Shown one piece after another: positions 7,966 through 64,000 of a stretch of 64,000 nt of DNA (the first letter of the stretch is position 1; the number at the start of each line of letters is the position of its first letter). The translations under genes and the position numbers were made by a program. The stretch spans positions 30,843,440 to 30,907,439 of the forward strand of contig NC_134841.1 in the NCBI RefSeq assembly GCF_965363235.1, read 5' to 3'. The notes beneath the pieces are model-generated. The model was not told the origin of the DNA and ran no database searches. It was given only the letters and a program-made list of their open reading frames with translations. This DNA comes from Mytilus galloprovincialis. Taxonomy: Eukaryota; Mollusca; Bivalvia; Mytilida; Mytilidae.

Positions 7966-8060
7966 GTTATTACCACAGGCACTTGTCTCAGAAAAAAAAA
8001 TCCTATATACCTTATTATATAGGAATTTTTTTTTCTGAGACAAGTGCCTGTGGTTATTAC
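7966..8060. mobile_element. 79-bp mini-foldback with 8-bp target duplication
   Basis: An almost perfect palindrome occupies 7974-8052. It starts CACAGGCACTTGT, the same terminus as the 700-bp foldback 0.9 kb upstream. It is flanked by an exact 8-bp direct repeat GTTATTAC (7966-7973 and 8053-8060). The arms are about 36 bp with almost no loop. This looks like the smallest member of the same transposon family, reduced to the termini alone. Confidence 0.9.
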
Positions 8061-8399
8061 ACCTCTAATTGATTTTGTTATTTAAGATTCACATTGTTTA
8101 TCATATTCTGTTTCTGTTTTAATGTTTCTTGTGTGTATTTTTGGGCTAATTAAAATAAAATGTCCCCGAGGGTATCACCAGCCCAGTAGTCAACACTTCG
8201 GCGTTGACATGAATATCAATAATGTGGTCATTTTTATAAATTTCCTGTTTACCAAACTTTGAAATTTTTGAAAAACTAAGGATTTTCTTATTCCAGGCAT
8301 AGATTACCTTAGCCGTATTTGGCACAACTTTTTGGAATTTTGGATCCTCAATGCTCTTCAACTTTGTACTTGTTTGGCTTTATAAATATTTTGATATGA

Positions 8400-8443
8400 G
8401 CGTCACTGATGAGTCTTATGTAGACGAAACGCGCGTCTGGCGT
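8400..8443 (+). ncRNA. Hammerhead ribozyme 1 (type I)
   Basis: The core boxes CTGATGA and GAAA and the cleavage triplet GTC are all present. Stem I: GCGUCA with UGGCGU (six pairs including wobbles). Stem II: GUC/GAC around a 7-nt loop. Stem III: only A-U and C-G capped by GCGC, a minimal form typical of animal retroelement hammerheads that may act as a dimer. Predicted cleavage is after 8437. Confidence 0.92.
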
Positions 8444-8711
8444 ACTTAATTATAATCTTGGTACCTTTGATAACTATTTACATCACTGGGTCGATGACAC
8501 TGCAGGTGGACGTTTCGTCCCCGAGAGAATCACCAGCCCAGTAGTCAACACTTCGGTGTTGACATGAATATCAATAATGTGGTCATTTTTATAAATTTCT
8601 TATTCCAGGCATAGATTACCTTAGCCGTATTTGGCACAACTTTTTGGAATTTTGGATCCTCAATGCTCTTCAACTTTGTACTTGTTTGGCTTTATAAATA
8701 TTTTGATATGA

Positions 8712-8755
8712 GCGTCACTGATGAGTCTTATGTAGACGAAACGCGCGTCTGGCGT
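8712..8755 (+). ncRNA. Hammerhead ribozyme 2 (type I)
   Basis: Identical core and stems to the copy at 8400. It closes a short (312-bp) monomer. Confidence 0.92.
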
Positions 8756-8796
8756 ACTTAATTATAATCCTGGTACCTTTGATAACTATTTACACC

Positions 8797-8875
8797 ACTG
8801 GGTCGATGCCACTGCTGGTGGACGTTTCGTCCCCGAGGGTATCACCAGCCCAGTAGTCAACACTTCGGTGTTGAC
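8797..8875 (+). ncRNA. Retrozyme folded domain outside the ribozyme
   Basis: Four helices can be drawn here. P1: ACTGGG (8797-8802) with CCCAGT (8849-8854). P2: GCTGGTG (8814-8820) with CACCAGC (8843-8849). P3: GGACG/CGTCC around TTT (8820-8832). P4: an 8-bp stem GTCAACAC/GTGTTGAC capped by TTCG (8856-8875). P1/P2 and P2/P3 share a boundary base, so they would stack or trade one pair. The same helices with different sequences occur in the other retrozyme class at 61087-61168 (minus strand). Copies recur in every complete monomer of the array. Confidence 0.72.
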
Positions 8876-9066
8876 ATGAATATCAATAATGTGGTCATTT
8901 TTATAAATTTCCTGTTTACCAAACTTTGAAATTTTTGAAAAACTAAGGATTTTCTTATTCCAGGCATAGATTACCTTAGCCGTATTTAGCACAACCTTTT
9001 GGAATTGTGGATCCTCAATGCTCTTTAACTTTGTACTTGTTTGGCTTTATAAATATTTTGATATGA

Positions 9067-9110
9067 GCGTCACTGATGAGTCTTATGTAGACGAAACGCG
9101 CGTCTGGCGT
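9067..9110 (+). ncRNA. Hammerhead ribozyme 3 (type I)
   Basis: Same 44-nt motif with intact core and all three stems. It closes a long (355-bp) monomer. Confidence 0.92.
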
Positions 9111-9421
9111 ACTTAATTATAATCCTGGTACCTTTGATAACTATTAACACCACTGGGTTGATGCCACTGCTGGTGGACGTTTCGTCCCCGAGGGTATCAC
9201 CAGCCCAGTAGTCAACACTTCGGTGTTGACATGAATATCAATAATGTGGTCATTTTTATAAATTTCCTGTTTACCAAACTTTGAAATTTTTGAAAAACTA
9301 AGGATTTTCTTATTCCAGGCATAGATTACCTTAGCCGTATTTTGCACAACTTTTTGGAATTTTGGATCCTCAATGCTCTTAAACTTTGTACTTGTTTGGC
9401 TTTATAAATATTTTGATATGA

Positions 9422-9465
9422 GCGTCACTGATGAGTCTTATGTAGACGAAACGCGCGTCTGGCGT
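9422..9465 (+). ncRNA. Hammerhead ribozyme 4 (type I)
   Basis: Same 44-nt motif with intact core and all three stems. It closes a long monomer. Confidence 0.92.
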
Positions 9466-9733
9466 ACTTAATTATAATCCTGGTACCTTTGATAACTATT
9501 TACACCACTGGGTCGATGCCACTGCTGGTGGACGTTTCGTCCCCGAGGGAATCACCAGCCCAGTAGTCAACACTTCGGTGTTGACATGAATATCAATAAT
9601 GTGGTCATTTTTATAAATTTCTTATTCCAGGCATAGATTACCTTAGCCGTATTTGGCACAACTTTTTGGAATTTTGGATCCTCAATGCTCTTCAACTTTG
9701 TACTTGTTTGGCTTTATAAATATTTTGATATGA

Positions 9734-9777
9734 GCGTCACTGATGAGTCTTATGTAGACGAAACACGCGTCTGGCGT
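9734..9777 (+). ncRNA. Hammerhead ribozyme 5 (type I, stem III loop variant)
   Basis: Core intact. The stem III loop reads ACGC instead of GCGC, while the two closing pairs are kept, so it should still fold. It closes a short monomer. Confidence 0.9.
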
Positions 9778-10044
9778 ACTTAATTATAATCCTGGTACCT
9801 TTGATAACTATTTACACCACTGGGTCGATGCCACTGCTGGTGGACGTTTCGTCCTCGAGGTATCACCAGCCCAGTAGTCAACACTTCGGTGTTGACATGA
9901 ATATCAATAATGTGGTCATTTTTATAAATTTCTTATTCCAGGCATAGATTACCTTAGCCGTATTTGGTACAACTTTTTGGAATTTTGGATCCTCAATGCT
10001 CTTCAACTTTGTACTTGTTTGGCTTTATAAATATTTTGATATGA

Positions 10045-10088
10045 GCGTCACTGATGAGTCTTATGTAGACGAAACACGCGTCTGGCGT
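10045..10088 (+). ncRNA. Hammerhead ribozyme 6 (type I, stem III loop variant)
   Basis: Carries the same ACGC loop variant as the copy at 9734. The two therefore share a recent ancestor, probably by local duplication of short monomers. Confidence 0.9.
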
Positions 10089-10398
10089 ACTTAATTATAT
10101 TCCTGGTACCTTTGATAACTATTTACACCACTGGGTCGATGCCACTGCTGGTGGACGTTTCATCCCCGAGGGTATCACAAGCCCAGTAGTCAACACTTCG
10201 GTGTTGACATGAATATCAATAATGTGGTCATTTTTATAAATTTCCTGTTTACCAAACTTTGAAATTTCGAAAAACTAAGGATTTTCTTATTCCAGGCAAA
10301 GATTACCTTAGCCGTATTTGGCACAACTTTTTGGAATTTTGGATCCTCAATGCTCTTCAACTTTGTACTTGTTTGGCTTTATAAATATTTTGATATGA

Positions 10399-10442
10399 GC
10401 GTCACTGATGAGTCTTATGTAGACGAAACGCGCGTCTGGCGT
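10399..10442 (+). ncRNA. Hammerhead ribozyme 7 (type I)
   Basis: Intact core with the GCGC loop. It is the last ribozyme of the array; the following monomer decays after about 105 bp. Confidence 0.92.
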
Positions 10443-10816
10443 ACTTAATTATAATCCTGGTACCTTTGATAACTATTAACACCACTGGGTCGATGCCACT
10501 GCTGGTGGACGTTTCGTCCCCGAGGGTATCACCAGCTCAGTAGTCAACACTTCGTTGTTGACATGAATATCAATTATATGGTCATTTTTACAAATTTCCT
10601 GTTTACTAAACTTTATATATACTGGCAATAGTATAAAACAGTTGAACTATACCCAGTACACAAGTATTTCCTATTCTAAACCTTCAAACTTGTTAAAAGA
10701 ATAAGTTAAGGACTTGTTGTCTTCATATTTTCTTGGCCATATTGTCTCTTTAATTTTGATTTGACAATTGTTATTCATTTTGTGCAGTTCACAAGACTGT
10801 GTTTTCATAGCTTTAT

Positions 10817-14604: not shown

Positions 14605-16370
14605 GACTATAGGCTCTCAAGAGCCTGTATCGCTCACTTGATTCTACTTGGGGTTTTGAAATCATATAAAAAAAATATATTTGGCTAAAAGTAACAACAA
14701 TTGGCCAGCACCTCATAAGAAAAGGAACATTCATGCTATATTTGATTTCATTCAATTCAGTGGTTCTTTAGAAGAAGACTTTTGTATGCATTTTCCATAG
14801 GGTCCTATGTTAAACTAAATCCCCCCACTGGCGGCCATCTTGGACGTTGGAATGGCGACAAAGTAACAACACTTGGTCTGAACCTCATAAGGAACATTCA
14901 TGCCATGTTTGGTTTCATTCCATTAAGTGGTTCACTAAAAGAAGACATTTGTATGTATTTCCTATAGGGTCCTATGTTAAACTAAGTCTCCCGCTGGCGA
15001 CCATCTTGGATGATGGATCGACTACAAAGTAACAACACTTGGTCAGCACCTCATGAGGAACATTCATGCCATGTTTGGTTTCATTCCATTCAGGGGTTCT
15101 CTAAAAGAAGACATTTGTATATATTTCCCATAGGGTCCTATGTGAAACTAAGTCCACCGCTGGCAGCCATCTTGGATGATGGATCGGCTACAAATTAACA
15201 ACACTTGGTCAGCATCTCATAAGGAACATTTATGCTATGTTTGGTTTCATTCCATTCAGTGGTTCTCTATAAGAGGAAACTTGTATGTATTTCCCATAGG
15301 ATCCTATGTTAAACTAAGTCCCCCACTGGCGGTCATTTTCGACGTTGGAATGGCGACAAAGTAACAACACTTGGCCAGAACCTCATAAGGAACATTCATG
15401 CCATGTTTGGTTTCATTCCATTCAGTGGTTCACTAAAAGAAGACATTTGTATGTTTTTCCTATAGGGTCCTTTGTTAAACTAAGTCCACCGCTGGCGGCC
15501 ATCTTGGATGATGAATCGACTACAAAGTAACAACACTTGGTCAGGACCTCATGAGGAACATTCATGCCATGTTTGGTTTCATTCCATACAGTGGTTCTCT
15601 AAAAGAAGAAATTTGTATATATTTCCCATAGGGTCCTATGTGAAACTAAGTCCACCGCTGGCAGCCATCTTGGATGATGGATCGGCTACAAATTAACAAC
15701 ACTTGGTCAGCACCTCATAAGTAACATTCATGGCATGTTTGGTTTCTTTCCATTTTGTGGTTCTCTAAAAGAAGTCATTTGTAAGCATTTCCCCATAGGG
15801 TCTTATGTTAAACTAAGTCCCCCGCTGGCGGCCATCTTGGATAATGGATCGGCTACAAAGTAACAACACTCGGTCAGCACATCATAAGGAACATGCCATG
15901 TTTGGTTTCATTCCATTCAGTGGTTCTCTAAAAGAAGTCATTTGTATGCATTTCCCATAGGGTCCTATGTTAAACTAAGTCCCCCGCTGGCGGCCATCTT
16001 GGATGATGGATCGGTCACAAAGTAACAACACTTGGTCAGCTCCTCATAAGGAACATTCATGCCATGTTTGGTTTCATTCCATTCAGTGGTTCTCTTAAAG
16101 AAGTCATTTGTATGCATTTCCCATAGGGTCCTATGTTTAACTAAGTCCCCCGCTGGCAGCCATCTTGGATGATGGATCGGCTACAAAGTAACAACACTTG
16201 GTCAGCACCTCATAAGGAACATTCATGCCATATTTGGTTTCATTCCATTCAGTGGTTCTCTAGAAGAATTTCAAAATGTAAAAACTTAACGACGACGACG
16301 ACGACGGACGACGACGGACGCCAAGTGATGAGAAAAGCTCACTTGGCCCTTCGGGCCAGGTGAGCTAAAA
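14605..16370 (+). mobile_element. Hairpin-ended tandem-repeat element, GCTCACC family (copy 2)
   Basis: The 5' end carries AGGCTCTCAAGAGCCT and then CGCTCACTTG. The core is nine to ten tandem units of about 166 bp, with a TAGGGTCCTATG landmark near 14797, 14966, 15131, 15297, 15464, 15628, 15797, 15957 and 16125. A GACGACGG run (about 16288-16320) is followed by the terminal hairpin at 16336-16366. The paralogous site near 50131-50155 lacks the whole element. The short open frames across it are translations of the tandem unit. Confidence 0.85.
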
Positions 16371-46924: not shown

Positions 46925-47436
46925 AAAATCTGGAAAGAATTGAACACATTAAAGCGTTTTAAAACGATGCCGTTGTGACTAGTCCATATAATTAAACGGA
47001 TAGTAGCTACGATTTTCATTAAAATTACTTTTTTAACCTATATTCCGGATTTTGTACAAAAAGTAAAATAAGTATGATTAAAACAATTACTGGTTACTTT
47101 CCATTTAGCAATTAGAAGCTTTTTAACGTTTAACACCTACATGTATTTATTGTCTATAGATAATAGTTCGATGTTAAGCCCAACCCTTATTCATATGACC
47201 TATGTTGACCATTACTCGTCAGTTCCCAATGGGCAATCGCACATTGTGCCTCAAAGGGAAAATGGTCGAACAAGGGAATGTTATCGCAGAAATGGTACGT
47301 AAATTTACATTTTCTGTGAGAAAAGAAACAAAAAAGAGGTGCAGACAAGTTATGGTAAATTAAAAATAAAAAACGTCGATGAGATCGGTCATTAAAATCA
47401 CTCAAAATAGTTATCAAAGGTACCAGGATTATGATT

Positions 47437-47476
47437 TAGTACGCCAGACGCGAGTTTCGTCTACATAACACCTGCG
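47437..47476 (-). ncRNA. Truncated hammerhead relict
   Basis: On the minus strand this reads TTATGTAGACGAAACTCGCG then TCTGGCGTAC, the 3' half of the hammerhead, followed by the usual AATCCTGGTACCTTTGATAA flank. The CTGATGA box is absent, so it cannot cleave. Confidence 0.7.
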
Positions 47477-47864
47477 ACGCAGGCATAGTCAAACATAAAT
47501 AGCCGACGGTTTGCGTAATATTTACATTTCTTAAATATTCAAGATCACATGAAAATAAATCGCAACGTGTTCATTATTGTCAAAAATATATTTATAAATT
47601 TACGGGCAGTGATCTCCCACCGTAGAAGAAATTAGAAATCAACTTCCTACAATTTAGTTTATTCTTCAAGTGTATCCTTCATGGATCGAGGTCCCGATTT
47701 AACACACAAACACGTGTATACATTATCGCCATTGTTGGAGAATCTTGGGCTGGAATAATATTCTGGTTTTTGTTATATTTTTTATCTACATAATTTGATA
47801 AATGGCGTCAAATGGCTCTTCAACTTCGTACTTTATTTGGCCTTTTTAACTTTTTTGGATTCGA

Positions 47865-47908
47865 GCGTCACTGATGAGTCTTTTGTAGACGAAACGCGCG
47901 TCTGACGT
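47865..47908 (+). ncRNA. Solo hammerhead ribozyme (type I)
   Basis: CTGATGA, GAAA and the GTC cleavage triplet are present. Stem I GCGUCA/UGACGU has Watson-Crick pairs at the position that is G-U in the array copies. Stem II GUC/GAC has a UUUUGUA loop and stem III has the GCGC loop. Flanks are shared with the copy at 52858 but not with the hairpin domain, so this is a partial retrozyme. Confidence 0.9.
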
Positions 47909-48934
47909 ATATACTAAATTTAGTGGTATCTGTGATGAGTTTATTATGTACATTTATTAAAGTAATTATCAAATACGTAAGAAAACAAAAAAGCACGTGT
48001 TCATATCTATTATATATCGGTGAAGTTCGGGAAGTAAACCTGATGCATAATTAATGAGATGAATAGGCACACAACACGATATGAATTATCAATTATTACC
48101 ACTTCTGTAGGTTATGAAAACATTCTAGCGATCTTATTGCTTCTTTTTAGTACATATCTTTTAATTTAGCAGCTTAAAAACTTGTTCATAATTTTGTCAA
48201 AATCGTAGCTACTATCCCTTTAATGTTTCGGGGTGACAATAATTGTGGTGTATTATTATATCTTCAATTATTTCTCATTAAGGTTCTTTAAATAAAGGTT
48301 ATATAGATATAGGAAGATGTGGTATGAGTGCCAATGAGACAACTCTCCATCCAAGTCCCAATTTATAAAAGTAAACCATTATAGGTCAAGGTACGGTCTC
48401 CAACAAGGAGTCTAGGCTCATGCTAAGAGTTTGTCTTTAACTCTCTGTTCTCTGGTTTTTTCTCCAACTCAGAGAGTAAACAATTATTCATAGGTATCTT
48501 ATTTTTTTACTTTTAATTGTATTGTTATCACTGTGGCTAACTAATGTGGTGTTTTTTGTAACATTTGGGTGCAGACTGTGAAAACATTCTATTTACTGTA
48601 AAAACATTTTTCATACTGTAAAAACATTTTTCATACTGTAAAAACATTTTTCATACTGTCAAAAAACATTTTTCATAAAGTTGTAGGTTCATTTGAGTCT
48701 TTGACCGTATTTGTGTTATAATGCTTTTTTATATATTTATGATTTGTTGTAGTTTATCTTCTGGAATAGTTCTTGTTTTCATAGTACATGTATATATAAC
48801 ATGTACTAATTGGGTAATAAATTCATACAAATGTACCGCATAAAGAATTTCTATCGTCTGTTCATTGTTATAATTTTTCATTAATAAATACTGTTTAAAC
48901 GAAACTCAAATTTTTTTACACCACTCAGTCTACC

Positions 48935-52699: not shown

Positions 52700-53338
52700 C
52701 AAGAATGTGTCCATAGTACACGGATGCCCCATTCGCACTATCATTTTCACAGGCATAGATTACCTTAGCTGAATTTGGCAAAACTTTTAGGAATTTTGGT
52801 CCTCAATGCTCTTCAACTTCGTACTTTATTTTGCCTTTTAAACTTTTTTGGATTCGAGCGTCACTGATGAGTCTTTTGTAGACGAAACGCGCGTCTGGCG
52901 TATATACAAAATTTAGTCGTGGTATCTATATGAGTTTATTTCCATGTTCAATGGAACGTGAAATTGGGTAAAAAAATCAAATTTGGTATAAAAAATTGGA
53001 AAGACCATACCATAGGGAACATGTGTACTAAGTTTCAAGTTGATTGGACTTCAACTTCAAAAACTACCTTGACCGAAAACTTTAACCTGAAACTTGCACT
53101 TCCATTTTCTATGTTCAGTGGACAGTGAAATTGGGGTCAAACGTCTAATTTGGTTATGAAATTAGAAAGATCATATCATAAGGAACATGTGTACGAAGTT
53201 TCAAGTCGACTGGACTTCAACTTCATCAAAAATTACCAGGACAAAAAACTTTAACCTGAAGCGGGACGGACGGACGAACAGACGGACGCACAGAACAGAA
53301 AACATAATGCCCCACTACTATCGAAAGTGGGGCATAAA
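52700..53338 (+). mobile_element. Hairpin-ended element, ATGCCCCA family, with nested retrozyme
   Basis: The 5' word ATGCCCCA (52724-52731) faces TGGGGCAT at the 3' end (53328-53335). The 3' end is a hairpin (53307-53335) preceded by a GACGGACGAACAGACGGACG run. Two loose internal repeats (TCTATGTTCAGTGG and TTCAAGTYGAYTGGACTTCA) recur about 180 bp apart. The paralogous site near 18915 lacks the element. A retrozyme fragment (about 52752-52945) interrupts the first internal repeat. Confidence 0.78.
52858..52901 (+). ncRNA. Solo hammerhead ribozyme (type I), nested
   Basis: Core boxes and all stems as in the array copies, with the TTTTGTA stem II loop seen also at 47865. The surrounding retrozyme fragment starts near ACAGGCATAGATTACC (52752) and ends near ATGAGTTTATT (52945), inside another repeat, so it arrived as a separate insertion. 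Confidence 0.9.
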
Positions 53339-59939: not shown

Positions 59940-60799
59940 CATTTGTTAGATTGGTTTGAGAATAAATTGTCAGCACCTGATATTCTTATTGCTTGAGCCC
60001 AATCGTCGGTTATACTTAACGGTCAGGCCATTACATAATCATTGCGAACCAACCACGCTATTTAGAAGAGGCCTGTCGCCTGGTCGTAAACTTGCCATCA
60101 CTTTCAATGTCGTCTGCGGATTAGAGTGTAACCTTTGCGCATATGTATACGTCTGTGAAACGAAAGGAAGGATAAACAAACGTATGTGCGGTCATAGATC
60201 AGACATTAACCTCAATGCAAACGACATTCTTTACCAGCATTTTAATCAGCCAGATCATTCCATCGTTTCTATGACAGTTCGCATTATCGAAAAAAAAATA
60301 TACCACAGCACTAACAATCCTCATCTTGCAACGCCTCTCCGTAGACAAAAGGAGGACTACTGGATTAGACAACTGGGACCTTCGTGTAGCTCGGTGAATG
60401 TGATGAATATTTTCAACTCTACTCCTCGACGTAGACGCAGTCATGGTCATCGTCATTATACATCACCTTCTCTGCATGATGTCTCTATTAATGACTTGCT
60501 GCCATTTATACAAAAGCCGTTAGGTATTCATCACATTCACACGAAACTTTATTCATAACTCCTTTCAAAACTTCATTCTCTGTTCAATTTATGTTTGGAA
60601 ACCACGGTTACAAACCCTCATTCAAACCAATACAAACTTACAGCCAGCATTTCGGATATAGCAAGTCACAGACTTTTAAAACCAGTCCGAATGGGAAAAG
60701 ATGAAAAAGAGAAGAGATCTTTTCTTAATCTTTCCTTTGCCAACAAAGGTCTCGATGACGTCAACTTAAGCATTTTCCTTCATCAGATACTCTATTTAG
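59940..60799 (+). pseudogene. PLE GIY-YIG endonuclease, array unit 1
   Basis: The open frame 59956-60558 encodes LSPGRKLAITFNVVCGLECN, then LCAYVYVCETKGRINKRMCG and HRSDI, YQHFNQPDHSI, RRQKEDYWIRQLG, and a basic RRRRSHGHRH region. The C-x2-C pair before YVxVxET, the Arg/His after it and the Glu in K-E-D-Y-W-I match the PLE endonuclease, which nicks target DNA for retrotransposition. A TAA after LYS (60556-60558) interrupts it. The reading continues from 60595 as SDIASHRLLKPVRMGKDEKE, a segment N-terminal to the RT in full elements. It is the first unit of an array with a period of about 735 bp and cannot be active without RT. Confidence 0.8.
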
Positions 60800-60848
60800 A
60801 AGAGGCCTGTCGCCTGGTCGTAATAAAATTTACGGTACCAATTTTCTT

Positions 60849-60892
60849 GCACCAGATGCGCATTTCGACAATACATGTCTCTTCAGTGATGC
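60849..60892 (-). ncRNA. Hammerhead ribozyme (type I), second class, copy 1
   Basis: The minus strand reads GCATCA then CTGAAGA (fits CUGANGA), stem II GACA/UGUC with a UGUAU-type loop, GAAA, stem III A-U and U-A around GCGC, the triplet ATC, then TGGTGC closing stem I (GCAUCA/UGGUGC, six pairs). Every helix is changed in sequence yet paired, compared with the array class. Confidence 0.88.
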
Positions 60893-61086
60893 TCGTGGCC
60901 AAAATATTAGAAATCCAAAGCTTATATAAATGATGAAGAGCTATAATCCAAAAGGTCCAAAAAGTAAAGCCAAATCCGTGAAAGGAATCAGAGCTTTGCA
61001 TGAGGGAGATACATTCCTTAGTTTATAATAATTTCTTAAATTTCGTAACAGCAAATTTAAATAACACAAAAAATCCGTATGTTCAT

Positions 61087-61168
61087 GCCAGTACCGAAGT
61101 ACTGGCTACTGGGCTGGTGATACCCTCGGGGACTAATAGTCCACCAGCAGAGGCATCGACCCAGTGAT
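61087..61168 (-). ncRNA. Retrozyme folded domain, second class
   Basis: Minus strand: ACTGGG with CCCAGT, GCTGGTG with CACCAGC, GGACT-ATT-AGTCC (61130-61142), and GCCAGTAC-TTCG-GTACTGGC (61087-61106). It is the counterpart of 8797-8875, with compensated base changes in the last two helices. Confidence 0.75.
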
Positions 61169-61198
61169 AGTAATAAAATTTACGGTACCAATTTTCTT

Positions 61199-61242
61199 GC
61201 ACCAGATGCGCATTTCGACAATACATGTCTCTTCAGTGATGC
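61199..61242 (-). ncRNA. Hammerhead ribozyme (type I), second class, copy 2
   Basis: Identical to the copy at 60849-60892. The two copies lie exactly 350 bp apart and would release one 350-nt RNA by self-cleavage. Confidence 0.88.
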
Positions 61243-62000
61243 TCGTGGCCAAAATATTAGAAATCCAAAGCTTATATAAATGATGAAGAGCTATAATCCA
61301 TCACTTTCAATGTCGTCTACGGATAAGAGTGTAACCTTTGCGGATATGTAGACGTCTGTGAAACGAAAGGAAGGCTAAACAAACGTATGTGCGGTCATAG
61401 ATCAGACATTAACCTCAATGCAAACGACATTCTTTACCAGCATTTTAATCAGCCAGATCATTCCATCGTTTCTATGACAGTTCGCATTATCGAAAAAATA
61501 TATACCACAGCACTAACAATCCTCATCTTGCAACGCCTCTCCGTAGACAAAAAGAGGACTACTGGATTAGACAACTGGGACCTTCGTGTAGCTCGGTGAA
61601 TGTGATGAATATTTTCAACTCTACTCCTCGACGTAGACGCAGTCATGGTCATCGTCATCATACATCACCTACTCTGCATGATGTCTCTATTAATGACTTG
61701 CTGTCATTTATACAAAAGCCGTTAGGTATTCATCACATTCACACGAAACTTTATTCATTACCCTTTTCAAAACTTCATTCTCTGTTCAATTTATGTTTGG
61801 AAACCACTGTTACAAACCCTCATTCAAACCAATACAAACTTACAGCTATCATTTCGGATATAGCAAGTCACAGACTTTTCAAACCAGTCCGCATTGGAAA
61901 AGATGAAAAGAGAAGAGATCTTTTCTTAATCTTTCCTTTGCCAACAAAGGTATCGATGACGTCAACTTAGGCATTATCCTTCATCAGATACTCTTTTTAG

Positions 62001-62730
62001 AAGATGCCTGTCGCCTGGTCGTAATCTTGCCATCACTTTCAATGTCGTCTACGGATTAGAGTGTAACCTTTGCGGATATGTAGACGTCTGTAAAACGAAA
62101 GGAAGGCTAAACAAACGTATGTGCGGTCATAGATCAGACATTAACCTCAATGCAAACGACATTCTTTACCAGCATTTTAATCAGCCAAATCATTCCATCG
62201 TTTCTATGACAGTTCGCATTATCGAAAAAATATACCACAGCACTAACAATCCTCATCTTGCAACGCCTCTCCGTAGACAAAAAGAGGACTACTGGATTAG
62301 ACAACTGGGACCTTCGTGTAGCTCGGTGAATGTGATGAATATTTTCAACTCTACTCCTCGATGTAGACGCAGTCATGGTCATCGTCATTATACATCACCT
62401 ACTCTGCATGATGTCTCTATTAATGACTTGCTGCCATTTATACAAAAGCCGTTAGGTATTCATCACATTCACAAGAAACTTTATTCATTACCCCTTTCAA
62501 AACTTCATTATCTGTTCAATTTATGTTTGGAATCCACTGTTACAAACCCTCATTCAAACCAATGCAAACTTACAGCTATCATTTCCGATATAGCAAGTCA
62601 CAGACTTTTCAAACCAGTCCGCATTGGAAAAGATGAAAAGAGAAGAGATCTTTTCTTAATCTTTCCTTTGCCAACAAAGGTATCGATGACGTCAACTAAG
62701 GCATTATCCTTCATCAGATACTCTATTTAG
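62001..62730 (+). pseudogene. PLE endonuclease array unit 3
   Basis: The open frame 62119-62730 is the longest in the array: MCGHRSDINLNANDILYQHF, KEDYWIRQLG, an SVNVMNIF-STPRC block, HDVSINDLLPFIQKPLGIHH and SDIASHRLFKPVRIGKDEKR. The frame then shifts because GATGAAAAGAG has one A fewer than units 1 and 4. The CNLCGYVDVC region lies just upstream (62060-62095). The unit lacks the TAA that follows LYS in units 1 and 4. Confidence 0.8.
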
Positions 62731-63468
62731 AAGAGGCCTGTCGCCTGGTCGTAAACTTGCCATCACTTTCAATGTCGTCTACGGATTAGAGTGTAACCTT
62801 TGCGGACATGTAGACGTCTGTGAAACGAAAGGAAGGCTAAACAAACGTATGTGCGGTCATAGATCAGACATTAACCTCAATGCAAACGACATTCTTTACC
62901 AGCATTTTAATCAGCCAGATCATTCCATCGTTTCTATGACAGTTCGTATTATCGAAAAAAAAAATATACCACAGCACTAACAATCCTCATCTTGCAACGC
63001 CTCTCCGTAGTAAACAAAAGGAGGACTACTGGATTAGACAACTGGGACCTTCGTGTAGCTCGGTGAATGTGATGAATATTTTCAACTCTACTCCTCGACG
63101 TAGACGCAGTCATGGTCATCGTCATTATACATCACCTTCTCTGCATGATGTCTCTATTAATGACTTGCTGCCATTTATACAAAAGCCGTTAGGTATTCAT
63201 CACATTCACACGAAACTTTATTCATAACCCCTTTCAAAACTTCATTCTCTGTTCAATTTATGTTTGGAAACCACGGTTACAAACCCTCATTCAAACCAAT
63301 ACAAAATTACAGCCAGCATTTCGGATATAGCAAGTCCCAGACTTTTAAAACCAGTCCGCATGGGAAAAGATGAAAAAGAGAAGAGATCTTTTCTTAATCT
63401 TTCCTTTGCAAACAAAGGTCTCGATGACGTCAACTTAAGCATTTTCCTTCATCAGATACTCTATTTAG
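62731..63468 (+). pseudogene. PLE endonuclease array unit 4
   Basis: Same domain order, with an A-run expansion (63950-63965 region of the consensus; here 62953-62963) and an extra base near GTAGTAAACAAAAG (63007-63020), both frameshifting. It shares with unit 1 the ACCTTCTCTGC, TTCATAAC and GATGAAAAAGAG variants. The part from 63264 is open (SDIASPRLLKPVRMGKDEKE...). Confidence 0.78.
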
Positions 63469-64000
63469 AAGAGGCCTGTCGCTTGGTCGTAAACTTGCCA
63501 TCACTTTCAATGTCGTCTACGGATTAGAGTGTAACCTTTGCGGATATGTAGACGTCTGTGAAACGAAAGGAAGGCTAAACAAACGTATGTGCGGTCATAG
63601 ATCAGACATTAACCTCAATGCAAACGACATTCTTTACCAGCATTTTAATCAGCCAGATCATTCCATCGTTTCTATGACAGTTCGCATTATCGAAAAAAAA
63701 ATATACCACAGCACTAACAATCCTCATCTTGCAACGCCTCGCCGTAGACAAAAAGAGGACTACTGGATTAGACAACTGGGACCTTCGTGTAGCTGGGTGA
63801 ATGTGATGAATATTTTCAACTCTACTCCTCGACGTAGACGCAGTCATGGTCATCGTCATCATACATCACCTACTCTGCATGATGTCTCTATTAATGACTT
63901 GCTGTCATTTATACAAAAGCCGTTAGGTATTCATCACATTCACACGAAACTTTATTCATTACCCTTTTCAAAACTTCATTCTCTGTTCAATTTATGTTTG
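63469..64000 (+). pseudogene. PLE endonuclease array unit 5, cut by window end
   Basis: Continues past the window. It shares CATCATACATC, TTGCTGTCATTT and CATTACCCTTTTC with unit 2. No retrozyme lies at its junction with unit 4. An A-run change near 63690-63700 frameshifts the endonuclease region. Confidence 0.78.

Follow-up and report, generated by a model that had tools for sequence, protein, structure and literature searches.

A conserved RNA domain in mussel retrozymes, located just 3′ of a fixed insertion end

Mussel retrozymes and the window

Retrozymes of the mussel Mytilus galloprovincialis have been described as tandem repeats of ∼350 to 390 bp that carry a type I hammerhead ribozyme, occur in thousands of copies, and give rise to circular RNAs (text of PMC7229834). 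How such circles are primed, and by which enzyme, is left open in the text of that paper and of PMC7761336, the latter also stating that metazoan retrozymes have no conserved motif that would indicate their partner. The LTR retrozymes of plants, as presented in the same text (PMC7761336), are likewise non-autonomous elements with a hammerhead and circular RNA; an LTR, a PBS, and Gypsy-type mobilization are described for these plant elements. An internal start of reverse transcription is known from the Penelope-like element PAc of Anolis: in vitro, its reverse transcriptase (RT) starts in an AC-rich stem loop, 111 to 118 nt into the open reading frame (ORF), of which it requires the first 172 nt, and the genomic ends of PAc coincide with the RT start sites (PMC11167929).

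This work concerns a second conserved RNA domain in mussel retrozymes. The domain was analyzed in a window of 64,000 nt (the whole stretch of DNA under study) and by genome searches that covered the 1.385-Gb assembly containing it. Like the metazoan non-LTR retrozymes of PMC7229834 (text), the elements found here have tandem units on the ∼350-bp scale and many copies; a type I hammerhead is a candidate further feature of the units. The monomers of four classes measure 355, 350, 364, and 351 bp, within the ∼150 to 400 bp by which tandem retrozyme units are recognized, and are present in many dispersed copies. The text of PMC7229834 names neither a second conserved domain nor a fixed insertion end, both of which are seen here, and neither feature of retrozymes is described in the text (figures and supplements aside) of PMC7761336, PMC11167929, or PMC2837043. 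The circle drawing in Figure 3D of PMC7229834 may depict the same hairpins unnamed.

The features of the window are listed in Table 1. In the window, covariance model R1, built from three domain copies (one each from classes 1, 2, and 3), retrieves eight full copies as well as a truncated one, which lies at the array's left end; two of the source copies lie in the window, and the R1 matches to both are by construction. In both window classes, the domain spans ∼84 nt and lies ∼40 nt 3′ of the hammerhead match. Cleavage by the hammerhead at 8712..8755 (+) is expected after GTC, between 8749 and 8750. All seven RF00163 matches in the class-1 array (five at 33 bits, two at 29.3) fall under the gathering score of 34, of which the class-3 hammerhead is also just short, at 32.5 bits. 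The Rfam hammerhead was not matched at E values up to 10 in class 2 (locus L010) or class 4 (L094 and L095); the core letters of the class-2 hammerhead in L010 are recognizable by eye only, and the class-4 hammerhead, also judged by eye, is irregular beside stem II.

Table 1. Retrozyme features of the 64,000-nt window
Feature	Position	Strand	Basis or remarks
Class-1 retrozyme array	8162..10614	+	Units of ∼312 and ∼355 bp; left edge inside P3 of a truncated unit
Second RNA domain, copy of the original prediction (P1-Pa-P3 rod and P4 hairpin)	8795..8881	+	Model R1, 114.8 bits; folding
P1 ACTGGG/CCCAGT, enclosing Pa GATGCC/GGTATC and P3 GGACG-TTT-CGTCC	8797..8854	+	Folding, class comparison
P4, 8-bp hairpin with TTCG loop	8856..8875	+	Sequence match, class comparison
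Putative reverse-transcription start site (..AACTATT, then TACACC..)	8784..8796	+	Insertion-end mapping, genome-wide 19-mer counts
Type I hammerhead ribozyme in the unit of the 8795..8881 domain	8712..8755	+	RF00163, 33 bits (gathering 34), E 9.3e-06
Class-1 domain copy	8483..8569	+	Model R1
Class-1 domain copy	9150..9236	+	Model R1
Class-1 domain copy	9505..9591	+	Model R1
Class-1 domain copy	9817..9902	+	Model R1
Class-1 domain copy	10128..10214	+	Model R1
Class-1 domain copy	10482..10568	+	Model R1
Class-2 retrozyme insertion, ∼1.4 circles	60815..61300	-	Insertion mapping
Class-2 domain copy	61081..61167	-	Model R1, 113.2 bits; z -5.1 versus shuffles
Class-3 insertion without domain copy	47815..47945 (approximate)	+	3′ end at start site (..GAGTTTATT)
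Class-3 insertion without domain copy	52740..52934 (approximate)	+	3′ end at start site
Class-1 hammerhead fragment, 67 nt	47405..47471 (approximate)	-	3′ end at start site (..AACTATTT)

Several other features were noted in the window and at one other locus. A tandem array of ∼730-bp units at 59950-64000 (+) is interrupted by the class-2 retrozyme; by eye, its open frames resemble the end of a GIY-YIG endonuclease (CETKGRLNKRMCGHRSD...), and a Pfam scan of the frame at 61960-62727 gave no family at E values up to 0.001. To the left of the class-1 array lies a near-perfect inverted repeat (7973-8053, ∼35 nt per arm, CCACAGGCACTTGTCTCAGAAAAAAAAATCC...) that is MITE-like by eye, and the stretch 14683-16268 is a tandem array of 9.5 copies of a 166-bp unit with 88% matches. 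A SECIS_1-like match at L031:3988-4052 scores 28.8 bits (gathering 35).

Predicted fold, classes, and covariation

The original prediction drew one set of nested helices for the two retrozyme classes of the window. The domain is indeed present in both and is not confined to two classes, being carried by classes 3 and 4 as well. The stems proposed for P4 exist (GTCAACAC-TTCG-GTGTTGAC in six array copies and GCCAGTAC-TTCG-GTACTGGC at 61087 on the minus strand), as do the small hairpins (GGACGTTTCGTCC in six copies and GGACTATTAGTCC at 61130 on the minus strand). In the predicted fold, P1, Pa, two short helices, and P3 make up an imperfect rod, and the P4 hairpin follows it. Compared with dinucleotide shuffles, the domain has z scores of -4.4 (class 1) and -5.1 (class 2), none of 200 shuffles being equally stable in either case, and whole-circle folding of monomers from the four classes gave the rod and the P4 hairpin in all of them, with P4 interrupted in class 3.

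One of the proposed nested helices, GCTGGTG/CACCAGC (Pb), was rejected as a nested helix on account of its pairing probability and weak covariation. All seven of its pairs have a predicted probability of 0.00 in both classes, Pa (GATGCC/GGTATC) replaces it in the predicted ensemble with pair probabilities of 0.96 to 1.00, and the nested fold, as redrawn here, lies 11 kcal/mol above the optimum. Because Pa and Pb cross, the two could coexist only as a pseudoknot. Covariation support for such a pseudoknot is weak: in 77 distinct copies, Pb pairing is 95.0% versus 94.5% in shuffles (29/500 as high), its covariation score is 0.067 versus 0.058 (24/500 as high), and one both-sided cell was counted, with shuffles as high in 154/500.

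Across the assembly, a pattern with a free P4 stem gave 8,483 matches and the reversed pattern gave 0; in one array, 43 domain-pattern matches are spaced 350 bp apart. Class 3 was found via its hammerhead alone (2,364 exact genome matches). At class-3 locus L074, the same core is accompanied by P3 GGAGA-TTTA-TTTCC and P4 GTCAGCAC-TTTTT-G(T/C)GCTGAC. Class 4, found by freeing Pa in the pattern, is represented by 411 exact copies of a 35-mer and has Pa GATACC/GGTATC, P1 ACTGGG/CTCAGT, and P4 GTCAGTGC/GTACTGAC. Between the four classes, the domain core (52 columns) is 90 to 100% identical and the two hairpins are 61 to 87% identical; since class-1 and class-2 loci were picked by a pattern fixing part of the 3′ strands of P1 and Pb plus the TTCG loop, and class-4 domain rows by a pattern fixing the 5′ strands of Pa and Pb plus P3, the invariance of the fixed letters in these rows is partly a product of that picking, and class 3, picked by its hammerhead alone, carries the same core. 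Outside the domain, the monomers are 78% identical for classes 1 and 3 and 56 to 57% identical for every other class pair.

Variant searches retrieved 155 places with a changed Pb, 122 with a changed P3, and 21 with a changed Pa, which, among the matches listed, are by eye mostly single changes or decayed copies. The changed-Pa search led to class 4, and the changed-P3 search led to further P3 forms (e.g., GG.(A/G)TTTTAATTCC at C3:29803235 and C12:36937688; four such copies were examined), whose sequences suggest that the domain has additional subclasses. Compared with the Rfam covariance models, the domain matches no family at E values up to 10. In viral contigs, one pattern gave 0 matches and another gave 12; the domain model confirmed none of these 12, its best E value being 0.99.

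Covariation was assessed by class comparison, RNAalifold, and shuffled-pair counts. Between the window classes, three pairs had been reported as changed on both sides; the real count is four, of which P4 has three and P3 has one. When the same 11 differences were placed randomly, four or more compensated pairs arose in 1 of 200,000 trials. The reported conservation of ACTGGG/CCCAGT (P1) holds for the window classes but not for class 4, whose P1 is ACTGGG/CTCAGT and, in 2 of the 22 copies examined (one of the 22 starts inside P1), has the both-sided change ACTGAG/CTCAGT. For five class representatives, RNAalifold recovered the rod together with P4 (-40.0 kcal/mol); both-sided changes affect 5 of the 30 pairs and lie in P1, P3, and P4. 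Alignments A3 and A5 lean towards the model structure, to which they were fitted.

A larger count employed 77 distinct copies, taken from 91 model matches at E values up to 1e-12 in 70 sources. Standard pairs occupy 95.0% of the pair cells versus 90.8% in shuffles, both-sided cells number 101 versus a shuffled mean of 33 (0/500 as high), and the covariation score is 0.189 versus 0.116 (0/500 as high), with the proviso that cell counts score inherited changes many times; counted by pair, 6 of 25 have both-sided changes, which is no excess (200/500 shuffles as high). When partners are slid by one to three columns, pairing falls to 28 to 45%. A preceding count, which used 74 distinct copies, had given 8 of 25 pairs (39/500), one Pa pair contributing two both-sided cells; in the 77-copy count, Pa varies one-sidedly (in class 4, from G-U to A-U), and a single compensated pair lies in P1. 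Most of the covariation signal sits in P3 and P4. At the level of sequence comparison, selection on the RNA structure of the domain, which the original prediction had put forward, is thus supported by compensatory pairs in P1, P3, and P4 and by a core that is far more conserved than the rest.

Insertion ends

Insertions were mapped in 40 loci picked by the domain, in 20 picked by the class-3 hammerhead, and in the window; those of at least 80 nt were counted once per unique 3′ flank. The picked loci all lie on contig C1 and were the first among the matches listed (within the first 10.7 Mb for classes 1 and 2 and at 2.8 to 36.5 Mb for class 3). The 3′ end lies 4 to 10 nt ahead of the first base of P1, with a mode of 7, in 56 of the 72 unique insertions (class 1, 30/40; class 2, 8/11; class 3, 18/21). 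This place is referred to here as the start site. The other 16 ends have offsets of -36, -30, -21, -19, -17, -14, -12, -3 (three times), -2, 0, +98, +103, +130, and -165. The 5′ ends are scattered: 0 of 68 fall 4 to 10 nt ahead of P1, and no 7-nt stretch contains more than 5 of them. In a preceding count that drew on a smaller set of loci, 35 of 46 3′ ends had been at the start site.

At the site ahead of the 8795..8881 domain, the last copied base would be ∼8790, 7 nt ahead of the first base of P1; in class-1 unit numbering, where the hammerhead cut precedes position 1, the last copied base is 41 and P1 begins at 48. The 3′ end of the class-2 insertion at 60815..61300 (-) lies at ∼60815-60822, smeared by a chance target match, and with its aligned end at offset 0 this insertion was scored as a miss. 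The class-1 array of the window is an exception, its 3′ end (10614, plus strand) lying 130 nt past P1.

Class 4 was used as a test of prediction. By eye, 8 of 10 fetched 71-nt pieces end at the matching place, in ..TATTT or ..CATTTTTT plus up to three extra bases; of the two other pieces, one runs on into a further copy, and the other has unrelated sequence at that place. Across the genome, the class-1 start-site 19-mer is followed in 1,316 cases by a flank mismatching P1 at each of its six positions, versus 33 cases for a control 19-mer 3′ of P4 (most of which, among the matches listed, look like small indels); these are the only genome-wide end counts, and they depend also on the copy number of each exact 19-mer. 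Because 100 listed flanks of the 1,316 contain, by eye, three duplicated pairs, the cases appear to be mostly separate insertions.

In the four classes, whose flanks differ, 5 to 7 nt separate P1 from the last copied base, and the intervening bases (about TACACC, ACTACC, TACAACC, and TACATC) are AC-rich by eye. Insertion lengths range from 0.2 to 6.9 circles, with whole circles not clearly preferred. Among the 70 insertions with both ends in view, 19 are free of the domain, and 17 of these end at the start site too, which suggests that the end is set by the template, in which the domain would lie just 3′ of the start, rather than by the DNA that was inserted. Target-site duplications are not seen beyond chance (2 of 52 junctions share at least 6 nt, with 1.1 expected), and there is no poly(A) run at the 52 junctions, where A is present in 14 to 24 of the 52 flanks at every position from 1 to 14.

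A candidate start element and its possible partner enzyme

From the fixed 3′ end seen in genomic DNA we infer an internal start of reverse transcription. With moderate confidence, we read the domain as the recognition and start element for the RT that spreads retrozymes, most likely a Penelope-like one, which would start inside circular or multimeric RNA. RT recognition, circularization, and circle stability had all been suggested as roles; it is RT recognition that gains evidence, from 3′ ends ∼6 nt 5′ of the domain, the link being positional. The hammerhead would cut multimeric transcripts, the products of which would be closed into circles, as has been reported in print for a mussel retrozyme. 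A borrowed RT would bind the P1-Pa-P3 rod and the P4 hairpin and begin copying within the RNA at the U/A-rich site ∼6 nt 5′ of P1, with no need for an RNA 3′ end. It would proceed 5′-ward past the hammerhead junction, whether ligated or uncut, and follow the circle or the multimer for 0.2 to several laps, stopping at no fixed place. A fixed start with an unfixed stop would yield 3′ ends at one place and ragged 5′ ends, as well as tandem copies and domain-free insertions. On a cut linear monomer, an RT starting ∼41 nt from the cut would copy only ∼41 nt; insertions run through the junction and span 0.2 to 6.9 units, so the template was presumably a circle or an uncut multimer, and passage beyond the hammerhead cut likewise suggests a template that was uncut, religated, or multimeric.

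By analogy, the RT partner is likely Penelope-like, as such an enzyme starts internally and has its needed RNA 3′ of the start. Retrozymes resemble PAc (PMC11167929) in this arrangement, in genomic ends at the start site, and in a nearby hammerhead. Unlike the noncoding ∼350-nt unit described here, PAc encodes a protein and has its start within the ORF, and the likeness is one of arrangement. That the domain lets a Penelope-like RT start inside a closed circular RNA and roll for anything from a fraction of a lap to many, with retrozymes as parasites of that enzyme, is a more specific possibility, which we hold tentatively.

Units of 350 to 364 bp are too short for an ORF encoding an RT and an endonuclease. 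Three loci, examined from at least 147 GIY-YIG matches listed (150 of 1,001 candidates were scored), carry frames 784, 791, and 908 aa long, with matches to RVT_1 (28.0, 27.9, and 39.2 bits, respectively; cut-off, 29.6) and to GIY-YIG. The domain is absent from these loci at E values up to 0.01; with filters off and E values up to 10, domain-model scores there are only 9 bits or less, and no Rfam hammerhead was found at E values up to 1. As such, the search of these three RT-plus-GIY-YIG loci gave no autonomous element with the domain. Core-bearing elements without P4 were rejected as an autonomous partner, the 27 places being by eye small deletions or truncations. As a separate observation, GIY-YIG matches often occur in pairs, one on each strand and no more than 2 kb apart, an arrangement like that of inverted Penelope-like copies (e.g., C12:53730884/53732559 and C8:85318445/85320220), and several frames measure 780 to 911 aa.

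LINEs, too, are copied from a set position at the 3′ side and are truncated on the 5′ side, and the domain could be the start element for an RT that is not Penelope-like, such as that of a LINE whose RNA has a functional equivalent of the domain. We regard this as unlikely, even though no Penelope-like partner with the domain was present among the three loci examined. Target-site duplications and poly(A) are usual for L1-type LINEs, and the 52 junctions display neither duplication beyond chance nor a poly(A) run. R2-type LINE RTs recognize a structured 3′ UTR, which sets the start, so there too an RNA structure read by the RT fixes the start; the RNA that R2 requires is this copied 3′ UTR, 5′ of the start, whereas the retrozyme domain lies 3′ of the start and would be copied only on a further lap. 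A start at a preformed RNA end, with the domain directing 3′-end formation through a second ribozyme or nuclease site ∼6 nt before P1, would yield identical fixed insertion ends, and HDV-type ribozymes, whose cleavage site borders the first helix on its 5′ side, are a precedent for such a cut. This account is nonetheless improbable: the site here is ∼6 nt off the helix rather than at its edge, the hammerhead is the sole Rfam ribozyme family matched (E values up to 10), and published mussel retrozyme RNAs are mostly circular (text of PMC7229834).

Prediction of the domain in whole-circle folds of all four classes (P4 interrupted in class 3) would also suit a role in some other step, such as circle stability, ligation, hammerhead control, or packaging, its closeness to the start being coincidental; with the 5- to 7-nt spacing to P1 kept in four classes despite differing flanks, we consider such a coincidence quite improbable. 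Finally, GGGTCGATGCC resembles a B box, differing by eye in one letter from the consensus, and the conserved stretch could in principle be an internal Pol III promoter. This Pol III or SINE reading has next to no probability and was rejected, since G[AT]TC[AG]A..C is unmatched in the four monomers and T runs of at least five in each of them would terminate transcripts before a full unit; the paired changes in P3 and P4 and the fixed 3′ ends would also be left unexplained.

If the favored reading is true and the domain is what a retrozyme-spreading RT recognizes, one RNA domain would explain short, domain-free dispersed insertions and satellite-like arrays alike. Given the conserved domain and a fixed start site ∼6 nt ahead of it, a single RNA and a single purified enzyme would suffice to test how the circles are primed. 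In addition, the domain may serve as a marker for the autonomous partner, as well as for retrozymes whose hammerheads are missed by Rfam, as at the class-2 and class-4 loci tested.
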